DNA of 64,000 nucleotides, from positions 62,001 through 126,000 of the forward strand of contig NZ_JACJQO010000005.1 of the NCBI RefSeq assembly GCF_014696715.1, in the 5' to 3' direction. Position 1 is the stretch's first letter. The number at the start of each line of letters is the position of its first letter. The translations under genes and the position numbers were made by a program. Source of the stretch: Pseudanabaena sp. FACHB-2040. GTDB lineage: Bacteria > Cyanobacteriota > Cyanobacteriia > Phormidesmidales > Phormidesmidaceae. Below are positions 14,308-22,143 of this stretch, in pieces. Under the pieces are notes generated by a model that saw only the letters and a list, made by a program, of their open reading frames with translations, had not been told where the DNA came from and did not search any database.

Positions 14308-17097
14308 ATGCTGAAGAACCTTCTGGGTGATCCCAATACCCGCAAGCTTAAGAAATATCAGCCCGATGTGGCTGAGATCAACCTCTTGGAAGAGGACATC
14401 AAAGTACTCTCCGACGAGGCACTCTCCGCCAAGACAGGAGAATTTAAGCAGCGGCTGGAAAAGGGAGAAACCCTCGACGACATTTTGACCGAAGCTTTTG
14501 CTGTAGTGCGTGAGGCCTCCCGGCGAGTGCTGGGTATGCGCCACTTCGATGTACAGCTGATTGGCGGCATGGTGCTGCACGATGGTCAAATTGCTGAAAT
14601 GAAGACCGGGGAAGGCAAAACCCTGGTTGCGACCCTACCTTCTTACCTCAATGCTCTAACTGGTAAGGGCGTTCACATCGTCACCGTGAACGACTACCTA
14701 GCCCGTCGAGACGCCGAGTGGATGGGGCAAATCCACCGCTTCTTAGGCCTGAGCGTGGGGCTGATTCAGCAGGGCATGTCTCCCGCTGAGCGCAAGTTTA
14801 ACTACGGCTGCGACATCACCTACGGCACCAACAGCGAGTACGGCTTTGACTACCTGCGCGACAACATGTCCACGGCTATGCAGGATGTGGTGCAGCGCCC
14901 GTTCAACTTCTGTGTCATTGACGAAGTCGATTCGATTTTGATCGACGAGGCCCGCACGCCGCTGATCATTTCAGGTCAGGTGGATCGGCCCAGCGAAAAA
15001 TACACCCGAGCGGCAGACGTCTCTCGTGAGCTAAACCCAGAAGAGCACTACGAAGTAGACGAGAAAGCCCACAACGTGCTGCTGACCGACGAGGGCTATA
15101 TCAAATCGGAAGAACTGCTGGGCGTCGTTGACCTGTTTGACCCCAAAGACCCCTGGGCTCACTACATCTTTAACGCGCTTAAGGCCAAAGAACTCTTTAC
15201 CAAAGACGTCAAATACATCGTCCGCAATGGCGAGGTGGTCATCGTCGATGAATTTACTGGGCGAGTCATGCCCGGTCGCCGCTGGAGCGATGGCCTGCAC
15301 CAGGCGATCGAGGCCAAGGAGCGGGTAGACATTCAGTCTGAAACCCAAACGCTAGCCAGCATTACCTATCAAAACTTCTTTCTGCTTTACCCTAAGCTGT
15401 CGGGCATGACCGGCACAGCCAAGACAGAAGAGGCCGAATTCGAGAAAATCTACAACCTAGAAGTCACCATCATCCCAACTAACCGGGTGAGGGCGCGTCA
15501 CGATGTTTCTGACGTCGTCTACAAGACCGAAGAAGCCAAGTGGAAGGCAGTCGCGGAAGAATGTGCAGAAATGCACGAGCTGGGTCGCCCCGTACTGGTG
15601 GGCACGACCAGCGTAGAGAAATCGGAACTGCTCTCCAACCTATTGCAGCAGTTAGGCGTGCCCCACAACCTGCTTAATGCTAAGCCCGAGAACGTTGAGC
15701 GAGAATCAGAAATTGTGGCCCAGGCCGGTCGCCGGGGAGCTGTGACGATTGCCACTAACATGGCGGGGCGAGGCACAGACATTATCCTTGGGGGTAACGC
15801 TGACTACATGGCCCGCCTCAAGGTGCGGGAATATCTCATGCCCCGGATCGTGAAGCCGGAAGATGAAGACGAGTTTTCGGTGACGGCAGTGCCCGGCGCT
15901 AAAGGTCGAGGCCCCGCCCAAGGCTTTACACCAGGCAAAAAAGTTAAGAGCTGGAAAGCCTCTCCCGATATTTTTCCCACCGAGCTGTCAGCCGAAGCCG
16001 AAGCGGCGCTGCGTAGCTCGGTCGATCTGGCGGTGAAGACCTATGGTGAGCGCAGTCTGCCAGAATTGCAGGCAGAGGAGAAGGTTGCGATCGCAGCCGA
16101 AAAAGCCCCCACCGACGATCCCGTTATCCAGAGCTTGCGGGAAGTCTACAACCTGATTCGCCACGAATACGAGAACCTCACTGAAGCAGAGCACGACGAA
16201 GTCGTTCGCCTAGGTGGGCTCCACGTCATGGGGACAGAGCGCCACGAGTCTCGCCGGATCGACAACCAGCTGCGGGGCCGGGCCGGACGTCAGGGCGACC
16301 CTGGCTCCACCAAGTTTTTCCTCAGTCTGCAGGACAACCTGCTGCGGATTTTTGGTGGAGATCGCGTTGCAGCCCTGATGAATGCCTTCCGGGTAGAAGA
16401 AGACATGCCAATTGAGTCGGGCATGCTCACCCGCTCCCTAGAGGGAGCACAGAAGAAGGTCGAGACCTACTACTACGACATTCGTAAGCAGGTCTTTGAA
16501 TATGACGAGGTGATGAACAACCAGCGTCGCGCCGTTTACGCTGAGCGCCGCCGAGTGCTAGAAGGGCAAGACCTCAAAGAGCTGGTCATCGCCTACGCCG
16601 AGCAGACGATGGATGACATCGTGCAGGCATACATCAACCCAGAGTTGCCGCCCGAGGAGTGGAAGCTCCCCGAGATGCTGGAAAAGATCAAGGAGTTTGT
16701 CTACCTGCTGGCAGACCTAACCCCCGACCAGCTAGAAGACCTCTCACTGGGCGAAATTCGCACCTTCCTCCATGAGCAGGTTCGGATTGCCTACGACATC
16801 AAGGAAGCTCAGGTCGATCAGATCAAGCCCGGTCTGATGCGTGATGCAGAGCGATTCTTTATCCTGCAGCAGATCGATACCCTCTGGCGCGATCACCTGC
16901 AGCAGATGGACGCCCTGCGGGAAACAGTGGGCCTGCGTGGCTACGGCCAAAAAGACCCGCTGCTTGAGTACAAGAGCGAAGGCTACGAGCTGTTCCTCGA
17001 CATGATGACGGGCATTCGCCGGAACGTGGTCTACACCTTGTTCCAGTTCCAGCCACAGCCACAGCCACAGGTGAGAACCTCTCAAGAAGTCGTCTAA
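14308..17097 (+). CDS. secA: Preprotein translocase ATPase SecA
   Basis: The 929-aa motor drives Sec-dependent export through SecYEG at the plasma and thylakoid membranes. Walker A is in [14 protein letters not shown] (about residue 105), Walker B in [20 protein letters not shown], and the second motor half contains [17 protein letters not shown]. The preprotein cross-linking domain (about 220-370) and the C-terminal helical scaffold (from about 650, [20 protein letters not shown]) are present. The C-terminal zinc-binding SecB-binding tail is absent; the end is Gln/Pro-rich ([15 protein letters not shown]), as in cyanobacterial SecA. Length fits the family. It stops 3 bp from the convergent binding-protein gene. 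Confidence 0.97.
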
Positions 17098-17100
17098 ACT

Positions 17101-18210
17101 TCAATTAGCCCGCTGCCACAGCCGGATCACCTCAGTTACTACCTGACGATCTGGCGGCAGCGAGATCTGGCTAGGCGGATTGACCTCAGCCCCTGGAATC
17201 CCTTGGCTCCAGGGGCTGTTGGGTACGCTCTCTAGATCTACGCTAGGGTTTACTGGACGAAAGCCATGCTGCACAAAGACCGTCTGCTGTTCGGGCGCAG
17301 CCAGAAACTCAAGAAAAGTACGGGCCGCTTTAGCCTCCCCGCTGCTGACATCCTGGCGGAGAATGGCAGCAGTGGAGACGGTTTCGACCGTGCGATCCAG
17401 ATAGTAGATTTCGTAGCTCTGGTTCTGAGTGGTGCCCGACTGCTCCCAGCGATGCAGGGCAATGCTTTCGTAAACAGTGGCGATGTCGGCATCGTTGGGG
17501 CCTCGGGTAATAAACTCCTGCAGCAAAATGTCTGTGGAGCGGGGCGGCTGGTAAACCGAGCTCTTGACCTGGGCAAAGAGCGACTGAACCGGCGGCGCAT
17601 TGAGGGCAGCCGGGCTGAGGGCTGACGTGTTGAGCGCTGCTTCAGACCAAAGAGTAAGCGTGAGCTGACCGCTGTTAGAGCGGGTTGGATCGGTGGTGAC
17701 AAAGTCGAAGCTGCCCCAAGCCGGATTGCCGCCAATCGCACCCCAGTTGGCCTGTTCAATGGCCTGCTCCAGGCGCGACCACTGAAATTGGCCATTGGGA
17801 AAGAGGGCCTTGCCGCGCTCAGGCCATGCGATCGCAACCAGCAGCGTCTTCGCCACTGGCTGTGGCTCCTCGTAGAAGGGGCTCTCGCCGGTTTGAGTTT
17901 GCCAGCGCTGACGCAGCTCCTCCAGCAGATCGCCGTTAGCCGGAATCAGCACAGTCGCTTTGAAGTCGTTTCTATCATCTAGATAGTTGTTAACGACATC
18001 CTGAGAGCCCTGAATTTTAATTACTAGATCAACGTTGGGATTAGCCTGCTCAAATCGAGGCTCCAGCGCTGCTAGCGGTTCCTGTAGTTCCGAGCCGCTG
18101 ACGACTGTGACCGTCTGCTGCAGACCCGGCAGAGGGGCGTAGGTTAGGGCCAAGGCTCCAGCAATAATGGCGGTCGAGAGAGCTATCCGTGCACCTGAAG
18201 ACTGCGTCAT
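17101..18210 (-). CDS. Extracellular solute-binding-type protein, last gene of the VWA operon
   Basis: The 369-aa protein has a signal-type N-terminus (ARIALSTAIIAGALALTYAP) and a periplasmic binding-protein fold. TVTVVSGSELQEPLAALEPR opens lobe I, GSQDVVNNYLDDRNDF follows, and FVTTDPTRSNSGQLTLTLW resembles the ligand-binding P-loop-like TxSNSG motif of phosphate/molybdate-type binding proteins. LQEFITRGPNDADIATVYE and VQHGFRPVNPSVDL mark lobe II. The same TRSNSG motif occurs in the first gene of the operon, so the two binding domains are probably related. No permease or ATPase for an ABC importer is present. It starts 36 bp after the previous gene. Ligand unknown. Confidence 0.7.
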   Translation of the reverse strand: MTQSSGARIALSTAIIAGALALTYAPLPGLQQTVTVVSGSELQEPLAALEPRFEQANPNVDLVIKIQGSQDVVNNYLDDRNDFKATVLIPANGDLLEELRQRWQTQTGESPFYEEPQPVAKTLLVAIAWPERGKALFPNGQFQWSRLEQAIEQANWGAIGGNPAWGSFDFVTTDPTRSNSGQLTLTLWSEAALNTSALSPAALNAPPVQSLFAQVKSSVYQPPRSTDILLQEFITRGPNDADIATVYESIALHRWEQSGTTQNQSYEIYYLDRTVETVSTAAILRQDVSSGEAKAARTFLEFLAAPEQQTVFVQHGFRPVNPSVDLESVPNSPWSQGIPGAEVNPPSQISLPPDRQVVTEVIRLWQRAN

Positions 18211-18246
18211 AGTAAGCTCCTTGGGGGTAATGCCGAATGGTGGGAA

Positions 18247-18795
18247 CTACTCTTGGGAAAGAGATTCGGGGTGACGATGTAACGAGGTAGCAGGAACTGC
18301 CGGAGGCCAGCGCACATCCCAGAAGCTCCAGCTCACGACCCCCAGCAAAAAGGCCATCAGGCCACTTCTCACCAGGGCGAAGGTCGGCTGCGCTGGTTGA
18401 AAAGTCAGCGTATCGGAGCCACTCCCGGCCAGAAACTCCTGCACCTGCCGCTTAATAGCCGCCCCCGAAATGGGGCTTTGGGCAATTTGAGTGGAAAAGG
18501 TCTGGGATTCGCCGCTGAGGGTAAGGGTATGGCGAAATCGTACCCCGCCACGCGGTACTCGGTCAGTTAGCTCCGAGACCACCTCCACAGACTCGACCAC
18601 AAAGGGCTTGGCGGCACCGGGAATCAGCCCATAAAGGAAGGTGCTCACCGCCTCGCAGCGCACCTCATCGGAGGCCGGGCGGTGGCAGGTCAGACCCTGC
18701 CCACCTGTAGTCAAACAGCAGTAGGCGACTAGCAGCAGCAAACAGAGCAGACCCACAATCGGCAGGCTCGCAGGTCGGGCTTTAGACTGGGTCAT
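18247..18795 (-). CDS. Membrane protein of the VWA operon, 182 aa
   Basis: I do not recognise a family. There is a membrane helix near the N-terminus (LPIVGLLCLLLLVAYCCLTT, about residues 11-30) and a second near residue 145-160 (GLMAFLLGVVSWSFW). The roughly 110 residues between carry GLTCHRP and SDEVRCEAVS, cysteines that could form a disulphide if this part is periplasmic. The start is 2 bp from the previous stop, so it must be translated within the operon. Its role is presumably to anchor or stabilise the two exported VWA/binding proteins. Confidence 0.65.
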   Translation of the reverse strand: MTQSKARPASLPIVGLLCLLLLVAYCCLTTGGQGLTCHRPASDEVRCEAVSTFLYGLIPGAAKPFVVESVEVVSELTDRVPRGGVRFRHTLTLSGESQTFSTQIAQSPISGAAIKRQVQEFLAGSGSDTLTFQPAQPTFALVRSGLMAFLLGVVSWSFWDVRWPPAVPATSLHRHPESLSQE

Positions 18796-18797
18796 AG

Positions 18798-19526
18798 TTA
18801 CCCTTCAGCAATCAGCACCTCCATATTCTCCTGCATCCCGTTGAACTCAGTGCTGAGGCTGCGCACTTCGTCAGCTGCCAGGGAACTGCTCAAATCGGCG
18901 GTGCGTAATTTGTTCTGAAGCTGCTGCAAAACGCCTGCGGCATCGAGAATTAAGGTTGATAGGCTGACAACTTGAGCCTCACGAGCATCTTCCCCCTGCT
19001 GGGCGAGCTGCCGGTTGCGCTGCAAACTGGCAATTAGGGTATCCCACTGTTGGCGGGCCACGCCACTGCTGTTTTGCCGCTGCCGCTCGGCCTCGATCAG
19101 CTGCTTTTCTAGATCGGTGACCGACAGCAGTGAATCTTTGCCCTGCAGCCGCTGGGCCAATTGGTCGATTTTGGCAGGCAGTTCGCGGCTGCGATCGCAA
19201 GCATACTGCACTACTCCTAACAGCTCTATCTGATGAGCCTCGGTCAGCAGCCGTTGGGCCTCGGCCTGCAGCGCAGTGGCCTGCTGGGTGAGGTTCAAAG
19301 CCTGTTGCCGAGTTTTTTGCAGCTCCTGCTCCAGACGCGGGTTTTCCAATACAGGGGAGGAGTCGGGCTCGCGAGATTTAAGGGCAGTAGCTCCGAGGGT
19401 TGCGATCGCGGCCGCAGCAGGCAGCATCACCCCGCTGGGCAAACTCGCCAGACGCACCCCCAAAAACAGCGTCAAACCGCCCGCCAAAACCGCTAAAGGA
19501 TACTGCAGAGGATTAGCCAGCTTCAT
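18798..19526 (-). CDS. Membrane-anchored coiled-coil protein of the VWA operon
   Basis: The 242-aa protein starts with a pair of hydrophobic segments (about residues 9-24 and 32-47), a likely membrane hairpin. It is then almost entirely heptad-like helix rich in Gln, Leu, Glu and Arg (about residues 60-240), a coiled coil. No enzymatic motif is visible. It begins 2 bp after the VWA gene stop. The design resembles scaffolding or sensing subunits such as those in TelA-like or phage-shock assemblies, but I cannot assign it to either family. Confidence 0.65.
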   Translation of the reverse strand: MKLANPLQYPLAVLAGGLTLFLGVRLASLPSGVMLPAAAAIATLGATALKSREPDSSPVLENPRLEQELQKTRQQALNLTQQATALQAEAQRLLTEAHQIELLGVVQYACDRSRELPAKIDQLAQRLQGKDSLLSVTDLEKQLIEAERQRQNSSGVARQQWDTLIASLQRNRQLAQQGEDAREAQVVSLSTLILDAAGVLQQLQNKLRTADLSSSLAADEVRSLSTEFNGMQENMEVLIAEG

Positions 19527-19528
19527 GG

Positions 19529-21235
19529 TTAAAACTCCAGCTGCAGATCCGACATCAAGCGAGCAATTGTGGCCGGATCGCCCTTGGAATAGTAGCCGCC
19601 ATTGAGCTGAGCAATCTGCTGCAAAGCTTCTGGGTCAAAGTCACCTTCTTCTCCATAGCCCACCGTAAAAAAGGCAATCCGCTCATCACTGGAGAACCCA
19701 CTCTGCTGCAGCTCCTGGCCCAGCTGTTCCAGAGAAATGCCTGACTCCGAATCTTCCCCATCAGTCAGCACCAACACTGCATTGATGGCGTCGTCCCGAC
19801 GGTTCTGCCGCAGCCAATTACGAGCATAGAGACTGGCATCATACAGGCGAGTGCCGCCTTCGACCTGTAGGCTATTGATAAACTGCAATCCCCGCTGCTG
19901 CCCCTCAGGCGTACTGTCTGCCAAAACCGGAGACCGAATACTGGAATCGAAATCAATTAACGCCACCTTGTCCTTAGGCCCTAAGCTCGTAATGTAACTC
20001 TGCAGAGTGCTCTGCACTGCAGGCATCTTGTTGCCCTCCATAGAGCCAGAGGAATCGACCACAATCACCACTAGCGACGGCTTTTTAGCAGTCTCCTCCC
20101 AACTGGTCAGTATGGCCTCCACGACCTGGGGTTGCGGGGGGCGGTAGGAGTCGTAGCTAGCCTGAGGATTGACGCCAAACTCCGGGCTAAATTTGGCCCC
20201 CAGAGGCACTCCCGGCACCCCTGGACGCAGCCCCAATTCAGCGGCGATCTGCTGAACTGCTGGAGTCTGTAGATAGGCCAGGATGGCCTCTGCAGCCTCC
20301 TTCTCCTCAGCGCTAACCCAGGGAGCATTGGGCAAAATACCTCGCATATTGGAGGTAAACGTGGCCTTGGGGTACACCGCTACATACTTGGGCTGATCAG
20401 GTTGGCGCTGGCTGTTAGCCTCAATCACTGAAGACTCATAAACAGAACCAATGGAAGCCCAGAAAGGCCCGTTTTCGAGCATAGACTGAGCCAGAGACCC
20501 GGTAGAAACACCGTACCGGGTAATTTTGCTTTGAATGCTTTGAATGCCTGACTGGTAACTCTGGATGTCTTCAGGGGTCAAATCCTCTGGCCGCTTGCCC
20601 GATACAGAAGCGTACTGAGCCACTAGGGTTTGCAGCCCCGAGTTGGAGCGAGTAGGCGCAGTGTGAACGTAGTAAATATTTTGCGCCGGGCTAGCAGCAT
20701 CGAGATCCTGATGAGTTTGAGCGGTGGTTAACGCTCGATACAGATCGTCTACCTGCTGTAGCCCAGGGGCCAAATTTTCCTGCGTCATAAAAACCATTGG
20801 GCTATTGGCCAGCAGTGGAGCGTCGGCAATCGGCGGAATGTAGTTTTGTCCCGGAAAGACCTGCTCCATCTGATAGATCAGCTGACTGTGATAGATTTCC
20901 CCATCCACCGAAATCAGGGTGGGAAACTCGGGTGCCTCGGCTGCTAGGGTGCCCGACTTGAGCTGCTGTGCCAGCGTCACCACCTGATTGACGACATCAC
21001 CACTGCCTGCGGCTTCGCAAGACAGATAAAAGGCTTCGCCGCTGCTGAGTTTAGGGTCTTGCTGATTAAATTGCTCTGCTGCCTGATCGCAAAAGTGGCC
21101 TAGGGCGCTGCCAACTAGCAGCTTAACTTCCAGTCCCTGGCGGTTTTCACTGCTGCTAAGCCCATTGTTACAGCCAACTAGCAGCAGCACTAATCCTGCC
21201 GACAATGCTCGAATTCTGCCATTTGCATTGGACAT
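19529..21235 (-). CDS. Lipoprotein with solute-binding and VWA domains
   Basis: The 568-aa protein has a lipobox (LLLVGC, Cys22), so it should be lipid-anchored outside the plasma membrane. Residues about 35-350 form a binding-protein-like domain (SGDVVNQVVTLAQQ, TAPTRSNSGLQTLVAQYASV). From about 385 a von Willebrand A domain follows with an intact MIDAS: DSSGS (Asp394), a Thr in GGTRLYDAS (about 462) and the Asp of VLTDGED (about 491). Metal-dependent ligand binding by the VWA part is therefore plausible. It is the first of four tightly packed genes. Fusion of the two domains in one lipoprotein, repeated by a separate binding protein at the operon end, is unusual. Confidence 0.8.
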   Translation of the reverse strand: MSNANGRIRALSAGLVLLLVGCNNGLSSSENRQGLEVKLLVGSALGHFCDQAAEQFNQQDPKLSSGEAFYLSCEAAGSGDVVNQVVTLAQQLKSGTLAAEAPEFPTLISVDGEIYHSQLIYQMEQVFPGQNYIPPIADAPLLANSPMVFMTQENLAPGLQQVDDLYRALTTAQTHQDLDAASPAQNIYYVHTAPTRSNSGLQTLVAQYASVSGKRPEDLTPEDIQSYQSGIQSIQSKITRYGVSTGSLAQSMLENGPFWASIGSVYESSVIEANSQRQPDQPKYVAVYPKATFTSNMRGILPNAPWVSAEEKEAAEAILAYLQTPAVQQIAAELGLRPGVPGVPLGAKFSPEFGVNPQASYDSYRPPQPQVVEAILTSWEETAKKPSLVVIVVDSSGSMEGNKMPAVQSTLQSYITSLGPKDKVALIDFDSSIRSPVLADSTPEGQQRGLQFINSLQVEGGTRLYDASLYARNWLRQNRRDDAINAVLVLTDGEDSESGISLEQLGQELQQSGFSSDERIAFFTVGYGEEGDFDPEALQQIAQLNGGYYSKGDPATIARLMSDLQLEF

Positions 21236-21540
21236 ATGGATTGTCTGTCGAGAGTTTATGGGAGTGAGCTATCTACAAGCTACTCATCGAAGATTAACGA
21301 TTCCGTAAAGCTAGGGTGATTCACTAAAAGCAAAAATTTCTGCGAAAACTCGATAAAAACCTGAAAATCAGCTCAAGGTCCTGCCATTTGTAGTTTAAAC
21401 ATCTATCCAAAGAGAGATGGCGTTTTAGTATGAACACAAGTTTTCACCTATAGTGATTTTGTCTATTCCGTATATTTTGTGAGTAAAGCTATTTGGCTAC
21501 GGGGAACTCTTGGAAGCACTCCACTGCTTTTGATACGCTG

Positions 21541-22143
21541 ATGAAAATAATTTTGACGGTCACAGCCATAGGACTGGTGACTGTGATGGGGGTAGCGGGG
21601 GCTGCAACCGCAGCGACGGCCCAACCCAGTGCCGGTTCTCGTTGTGACGATGTCAATTTTATAGAGACTAGCAGTAGCGAGTGTATTGACCTAACTCGAC
21701 TTACCAGCACCCTTGAAATTGAACTCAGCACTCAGTTTTATACTGCCCTGGGTCGATTGAGTATTCCTGTTTTGCACAAAGACTGTGAGTCTGACAAAAC
21801 CTTGGGATATTACGACCTCTCTAGCAATGAGATGGTCTTGTGCATGAACAATCTTCAGGACGACCATGTCGAGATTGAAGCAACCTTGATTCATGAGTCT
21901 TGGCACGTAGTTCAAGACTGTGAGGATGGGCTAGATAATGCCAGCTACCGACCGATGTCTCTGCGGCATGGAGATTCTGCCAATCTGGATCTCATGGCCT
22001 CCAGCCTACAGCGGGCCGACCTGAGAACCATTGAAAACCATTACAACCCAGAGGATCGACCCCACGAAATCGAGGCTCGCTACATGGAGCATCACCCAGA
22101 TCTAGTGCTGCAGGCCCTAAACGCCTGTGCCATTCGGCAGTAA
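21541..22143 (+). CDS. Secreted zincin-like protein with HExxH motif
   Basis: The product from ATG 21541 is 200 aa. It begins MKIILTVTAIGLVTVMG and ends its signal peptide around AATAQP (residue 28), so it is exported. HESWH (His118, Glu119, His122) fits the HExxH zinc-protease motif. EIEARYMEHHPDL near residue 180 could supply the third ligand Glu, as in many small zincins. Six or more cysteines suggest disulphides. A TTG 48 bp upstream is an alternative start but would spoil the signal peptide. I know no named family; catalytic activity is inferred from the motif. It ends one base before the convergent GH1 gene. Confidence 0.65.
   Translation: MKIILTVTAIGLVTVMGVAGAATAATAQPSAGSRCDDVNFIETSSSECIDLTRLTSTLEIELSTQFYTALGRLSIPVLHKDCESDKTLGYYDLSSNEMVLCMNNLQDDHVEIEATLIHESWHVVQDCEDGLDNASYRPMSLRHGDSANLDLMASSLQRADLRTIENHYNPEDRPHEIEARYMEHHPDLVLQALNACAIRQ

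Follow-up and report, generated by a model that had tools for sequence, protein, structure and literature searches.

A co-inherited cyanobacterial gene set with two sulfate-binding-protein-like proteins, a VWA domain and a transmembrane hairpin protein, and its possible relation to TelA/XpaC-linked envelope modules

TelA and XpaC are stress proteins, present in several of the phyla considered here. An excerpt of PMC3498285 names xpaC-yaaN as a core member of the sigma-W regulon of Bacillus subtilis. For Listeria, an excerpt of PMC12791056, citing Collins 2010, reports that a mutant of lmo1967 (TelA/YaaN) is 4-fold more susceptible to nisin and 2-fold more susceptible to tellurite, and the same excerpt calls the function of TelA in Listeria "not well established". 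Here we analyse a set of genes related to these systems in a stretch of 64,000 nucleotides from Pseudanabaena sp. FACHB-2040 (contig NZ_JACJQO010000005.1, positions 62,001 to 126,000; hereafter the window). Four minus-strand open reading frames (ORFs), which we named A, B, C and D, occupy positions 17101-21235 of the window and are separated by 2 (A/B), 2 (B/C) and 36 bp (C/D) according to the ORF list, exactly as a first-pass annotation of the sequence had described them. Combinations of TelA, XpaC, VWA and SBP (substrate-binding protein), searched by title and start of abstract in the open-licence literature, retrieved no paper on this operon. Its parts and its link to TelA are recognisable, and it represents a known but uncharacterised kind of system.

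A, B and D were each searched against the same 244 sampled genomes of the phylum, with the cut-offs for strong matches placed by the analyst at gaps in the scores. Strong matches to the three genes fell in an identical set of 19 genomes (G000, G215, G042, G019, G060, G024, G191, G070, G109, G193, G119, G085, G241, G056, G145, G151, G187, G175 and G237). For A, the lowest strong match scored 424.9 bits and the next genome 70.6; the corresponding values were 100.8 and 44.8 bits for B, the latter being a remnant, and 283.4 and 38.2 bits for D, once matches to the SBP part of A and to another D fragment in G237 had been set aside. At E 0.001 the tallies for A, B and D rose to 103, 22 and 83 of 244 genomes, as VWA domains and SBP families are widespread. 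Nine families are represented among the 19 genomes. In five of them (f1, f6, f7, f15 and f20) other sampled members have no strong match to A, B or D, so the set appears to be gained or lost whole. A, B and D are consecutive on one strand in 16 of the 19; in G175 the pair A-B has D adjoining on the opposite strand, and in G085 and G241, which belong to one genus, the three genes are dispersed and all retained. Apparent frameshifts fragment A and D in G237. Two members of another genus carry decayed copies: in G183, remnants of B and D interrupted by stops lie next to each other, and G147 has a B remnant full of stops. No remnant of A was detected at E 1e-4 in the stretches fetched from these two genomes. 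Distance correlations across 15 loci were 0.94 for A-D, 0.83 for A-B and 0.85 for B-D, values that, with no control gene, species history alone could suffice to produce. We conclude that the conserved unit consists of three genes, A, B and D, which we take to form an obligate module. Such exact co-occurrence predicts that loss of any one gene should resemble loss of the others.

The first-pass annotation had treated all four genes as one unit and had proposed a neighbourhood survey across cyanobacteria as a check. That survey upheld the joint occurrence of A, B and D and removed C from the conserved membership: an ORF of at least 70 residues lies between B and D in only 2 of the 17 clustered genomes (G000 and G024), as well as in metagenome contig L067, and C is therefore optional and was rejected as a core part. 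Within close relatives the four-gene layout is nevertheless more than chance, since a sister contig ("Cyanobacteria bacterium Co-bin13", L065) has the same 2-bp spacing at A/B and B/C and the same start of C, with identities of 90% for A and 91% for B and low ratios of nonsynonymous to synonymous substitution (dN/dS; 0.056 for A and 0.077 for B). By these ratios, A and B are under strong purifying selection.

Gene A (19529-21235, 568 residues) encodes a predicted lipoprotein with a sulfate-binding-protein-like domain followed by a VWA domain, as judged from the ORF list, Pfam, AlphaFold, VIA-align and alignments. Cysteine C22 (21170-21172), in the motif LVGC that we take to be a lipobox, occupies a column that is Cys in 18 of 18 orthologues. 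The binding domain covers about residues 34-345 (20201-21136) and the VWA domain about residues 386-568 (19532-20080), both supported by Pfam (SBP_bac_8, 86.3 bits, cut-off 27; VWA, 60.5 bits, cut-off 23.8), AlphaFold and VIA-align. The AlphaFold model has a mean predicted local distance difference test (pLDDT) value of 87.8, with residues 1-30 below 50. In VIA-align, whose lists do not exclude other folds, the best match of the binding half was 5um2 (Sbp; Z 27.1, root-mean-square deviation (rmsd) 3.9, 300 aligned residues), with a thiamin-binding protein (Z 26.5) and 1sbp (Z 26.3) level with it and sugar-phosphate and polyamine binders not far below; the VWA domain matched 4fx5 (Z 22.0, rmsd 2.3, 172 aligned). 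The metal-ion-dependent adhesion site (MIDAS) includes the DxSxS element DSSGS (residues 394-398, 20042-20056), and D394, S396, S398, T462 and D492 form a set that is invariant in 22 aligned sequences, distant paralogues included. The VWA domain of A thus has all the predicted MIDAS residues, as the first-pass annotation had read them. This domain is related to MIDAS domains used in adhesion and docking, for example in inter-alpha-trypsin inhibitor heavy chains, alpha-2/delta subunits, TRAP and integrins. That would suit a role in surface adhesion or envelope assembly, with the MIDAS binding a partner outside the cell or in the envelope, the binding domains taking its sugars or anions, and B anchoring the complex to the cytoplasmic membrane. 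Such a role is rather improbable in our view: no recurrent pilus, secretion or polysaccharide gene stands beside the clusters (first residues of ORFs read, no family scan), and the TelA association of the relatives described below would be left unexplained.

Gene D (17101-18210, 369 residues; ORF list, Pfam, AlphaFold and VIA-align) encodes a second sulfate-binding-protein-like protein. Its N-terminal hydrophobic helix (residues 6-25, 18136-18195; hydropathy and model) is a probable signal anchor. Pfam assigned SBP_bac_11 (73.8 bits, cut-off 25), and VIA-align gave 5um2 (Z 27.4, rmsd 2.9, 290 aligned) and 1sbp (Z 27.2, rmsd 2.9, 286 aligned). The AlphaFold model has a mean pLDDT of 86.6 with a few residues below 50, and three of the five models were poor (59.6-65.2). 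The binding domains of A and D are homologous (hhalign, 98.6%, E 1.2e-15). In agreement with the first-pass annotation, both end genes contain a TRSNSG motif, at residues 195-200 of A (20636-20653; exact in 16 of 18 orthologues) and 176-181 of D (17668-17685; exact in 13 of 15), and the motif VYES is present in all 18 A and all 15 D orthologues.

Gene B (18798-19526, 242 residues; ORF list, hydropathy and orthologue search) lies between the two receptor-like genes and encodes a predicted transmembrane (TM) hairpin (residues 11-49, 19380-19496) followed by a helical, coiled-coil domain. The first-pass description of the middle genes as membrane and coiled-coil proteins therefore holds broadly, with the refinement that B has a TM hairpin besides its coiled coil and that C has two predicted TM segments. 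Pfam found no family above cut-off in B or C, and an NCBIfam scan of the operon proteins gave nothing over the curated cut-offs. PADLOC returned only weak matches, to B, and a defence-system reading was rejected.

The sulfate- and ferric-binding-protein-like folds, and the fact that the solved relatives listed are largely named transport binding proteins, would fit A and D being orphan binding proteins of an ABC importer that capture an oxyanion, a metal complex or a nutrient for a permease encoded elsewhere. A three-motif scan for ABC-ATPases covered 19 clusters, from 17 genomes including that of the window and two metagenome contigs, with flanks of up to about 6 kb (shorter on one or both sides in 6 of the 19, where the contig or the fetched stretch ended); as a check, the scan picked up one ABC-ATPase-like ORF elsewhere in the window. 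No such ORF was present in the flanks of 18 of the 19 clusters (permeases elsewhere in the genomes were not sought), which supports the first-pass claim of an exported or membrane operon with no importer partner beside it. The single exception, G056, has an ABC-3 system upstream of A, with a permease (PF00950) and an ABC-ATPase-like ORF, and in G085 B adjoins a CbiQ gene; both speak for an importer. A C-terminal VWA domain and an obligate TM-hairpin coiled-coil partner are unusual for importers, and four of the seven related loci pair with TelA instead. We consider the importer explanation unlikely.

Sets of an SBP, an SBP-VWA protein and a hairpin protein are also present in other members of the phylum, in Betaproteobacteria, in Deinococcus and in an actinomycete. 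G034, which belongs to a different class of the phylum, has SBP-VWA, XpaC, SBP and TelA in that order (Pfam: XpaC 94.3 bits, cut-off 29.8; TelA 385.2 bits, cut-off 30). Its second SBP, unnamed by Pfam, is a homologue of D in profile comparison (group of 7). G313 and G330 have SBP-VWA, hairpin protein and SBP, without TelA in the stretch read, and Pfam identifies the G313 hairpin protein as XpaC (49.7 bits). In a plasmid collection, Sphaerotilus, Variovorax (one of three matching records) and Nonomuraea carry SBP, TelA, SBP-VWA and hairpin protein, and Deinococcus carries SBP, SBP-VWA and hairpin protein without TelA; searched with D, this collection gave one matching record, and a scan of the genome contigs gave three loci only. 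TelA is present in four (G034, Sphaerotilus, Variovorax and Nonomuraea) of the seven loci read that lie outside the orthologous group and contain both SBPs and the hairpin protein. Profile comparison with the TelA-linked group gave 100% and E 2.7e-38 for A (6 sequences) and 98.6% and E 1.2e-15 for D (7 sequences). More partial sets were found in Thiodictyon (SBP-VWA, SBP and a helical protein without hairpin), Streptomyces (SBP-VWA, then a hairpin protein) and Miltoncostaea (SBP-VWA, then a helical protein for which a single TM segment is predicted).

By hydropathy, two TM segments are predicted in B and in the corresponding proteins of G034, G330, Sphaerotilus, Variovorax, Deinococcus, Nonomuraea and Streptomyces, as well as in B' of a paralogue set described below (L037). 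The G313 protein has three overlapping TM segments; those of Miltoncostaea and Thiodictyon, with one each, were rejected as hairpins. Sphaerotilus-type hairpin proteins reached 49-66% against the XpaC group in hhalign, and Pfam gave no name to those of Sphaerotilus, Deinococcus and Variovorax; we restrict the label XpaC to G034 and G313.

The occurrence of the same set with TelA, and sometimes with Pfam-recognised XpaC, in other lineages, which the first-pass annotation had missed, points towards envelope stress or toxic-anion biology. One way to account for it would be a periplasmic sink, in which both binding proteins sequester a toxic anion and B merely anchors or clusters them. Two different binding proteins per set with no transporter, and relatives linked to "toxic anion resistance", are in line with this; sequestration needs neither a MIDAS domain nor an obligate coiled-coil partner, and the anion binding is putative, which makes a sink very unlikely to our minds. 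Two receptor-like domains, a MIDAS and the absence of a permease nearby lead us instead to favour ligand-gated envelope stress sensing or protection over import, a reading to which we give about half of our confidence. Of the roles that the first-pass annotation had listed (sensing, adhesion or assembly), sensing is thus the one preferred, and adhesion and assembly gained no support either way. Our best explanation, at about even odds, is that the set in the window is the cyanobacterial form, without TelA, of an envelope module that elsewhere is linked to TelA and XpaC.

Several observations weigh against this interpretation. TelA (PF05816) has no match in the window's genome and is over cut-off in only 2 of the 244 genomes of the phylum, so the stress link runs via distant relatives only; TelA was also not seen in the stretches read of G313, G330, Deinococcus, Thiodictyon, Streptomyces and Miltoncostaea. 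XpaC (PF10112) is likewise missing from the window's genome and over cut-off in 1 of the 244. Identity of B with XpaC was not borne out: the layout is the same, but comparisons with 3 and then 10 sequences on the XpaC side gave 6% (local) and 25% (global) in hhalign, and PF10112 was not among the matches listed (25 of 51) for 17 B proteins. By the positive-inside rule for membrane topology, the bulk of B would lie in the cytoplasm. D scored 15.8 bits against the sulfate-binding family TIGR00971 (cut-off 155.5). The modelled resemblance to sulfate-binding proteins is one of fold, which does not fix the ligand: D falls below that cut-off, and thiamin-, polyamine-, ferric- and sugar-phosphate-binding proteins rank closely. 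Finally, the 19 genomes share ancestry, and their counts are not independent.

Under envelope stress sensing or protection, A would be lipid-anchored and D held by its N-terminal helix, both with their sulfate-binding-protein-like domains facing the periplasm. Binding of a small ligand, for which an oxyanion or another anionic group of like size is the likeliest candidate, would close a cleft. The MIDAS of A would then dock onto a partner, possibly D, by way of a bound divalent metal. B, the bulk of which would lie on the cytoplasmic side, could relay this state across the membrane or scaffold the complex, in the place that XpaC/TelA hold elsewhere, and the result would be stress sensing or protection rather than uptake. 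In its most specific form, which is possible though doubtful, the set would be a minimal ligand-gated trans-envelope switch without TelA, made of two sulfate-binding-protein-like receptors, MIDAS-VWA docking and a hairpin coiled-coil effector; if true, such a switch could show what triggers TelA/XpaC systems across many phyla. The co-inheritance of A, B and D suggests that a pair of periplasmic receptors and a MIDAS docking domain can be part of TelA/XpaC systems, and the cyanobacterial version lacking TelA means that the receptor half could be studied alone.

Gene C (18247-18795, 182 residues; ORF list, hydropathy and cluster comparison) encodes a predicted two-TM protein outside the conserved unit and has no paralogue in its own genome at E 1. 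D converges with secA (14308-17097, plus strand), and the 3 bp between the two ORFs (17098-17100) leave no space for a terminator in between. Upstream of A, a divergent gene (21493-22143, plus strand) has a weak Peptidase_M76 match (19.2 bits, below the cut-off of 25.2). Elsewhere, an FtsW/RodA-type gene and a gene for a CHASE2-protein kinase flank the lone D of G085 (L121, 4515-8923), and the order around the lone D of G241 is the same, judged from protein starts. In metagenome contig L067 (3404-5365), D shares its reading frame with an M48 (HtpX-like) protease domain, possibly through an assembly error. The B and D remnants (G147:C1:1906144-1906368 and G183:C1:2637844-2638787) sit in genomes of 2.8-3.0 Mb; from this size and the gene decay one may guess that these are reduced, host-bound cyanobacteria.

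Among known or recognisable systems, a cyanobacterial paralogue set, B'-A'-small one-TM protein (L035-L042, L064), resembles the window in having an SBP-VWA protein adjoining a TM-hairpin helical protein. A and A' are homologous (hhalign, 99.7%, mostly over the VWA domain), and B' is similar to B over the hairpin only (55%). Unlike the window, the paralogue loci read have no adjoining second SBP, and B' precedes A'. The small one-TM protein (113-125 residues, IDRSYC-like motif) follows A' in several cyanobacteria (L035 9729-10082; L037 10224-10601; L073 6647-6988), and neither Pfam nor NCBIfam assigned a family over cut-off to that of L037. In G193 (Pfam) and in Pseudanabaena and Stanieria (annotation), SPFH/Band_7 (prohibitin-type) genes are close to A', and in G041 such a gene adjoins TelA (Pfam; coordinates L039 7851-8729, L072 9118-9996, L073 3402-4187 and L126 9404-10387). 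C-like proteins near A' in L039 and L072 were too weakly similar to C of the window (E 0.24 and 0.056). ABC-3 (metal-type) permease genes (L036 8126-8986, L040 7671-8519 and L057 10871-11749) stand downstream of A' in G024 and, from the protein start only, in G042, and upstream of A in G056, perhaps by chance.

Sbp (5um2, 1sbp) has the fold closest to D and to the binding half of A; the window differs from it in a score far under the sulfate-binding family cut-off, in having no adjoining ABC transporter and in the VWA domain on A. In the XpaC-TelA (xpaC-yaaN) pair of Bacillus and Listeria, a TM-hairpin protein goes with TelA; the excerpted source gives no binding proteins in the xpaC-yaaN operon, whereas the window has no TelA, and in G034 XpaC and TelA join an SBP and an SBP-VWA protein. 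Compared with the TelA-linked clusters, the window has no TelA anywhere in its genome, a B that is unrecognisable as XpaC, and the extra, optional C. Where annotations of those clusters are present, they read no more than "toxic anion resistance protein", "substrate-binding and VWA domain-containing protein" and "hypothetical protein". The clusters of Sphaerotilus, Variovorax, Nonomuraea and G034 are like the window in that both binding proteins are homologous and accompanied by a two-TM helical protein, and in G034, G313 and G330 the genes stand in the order A-B-D, as they do in the window.

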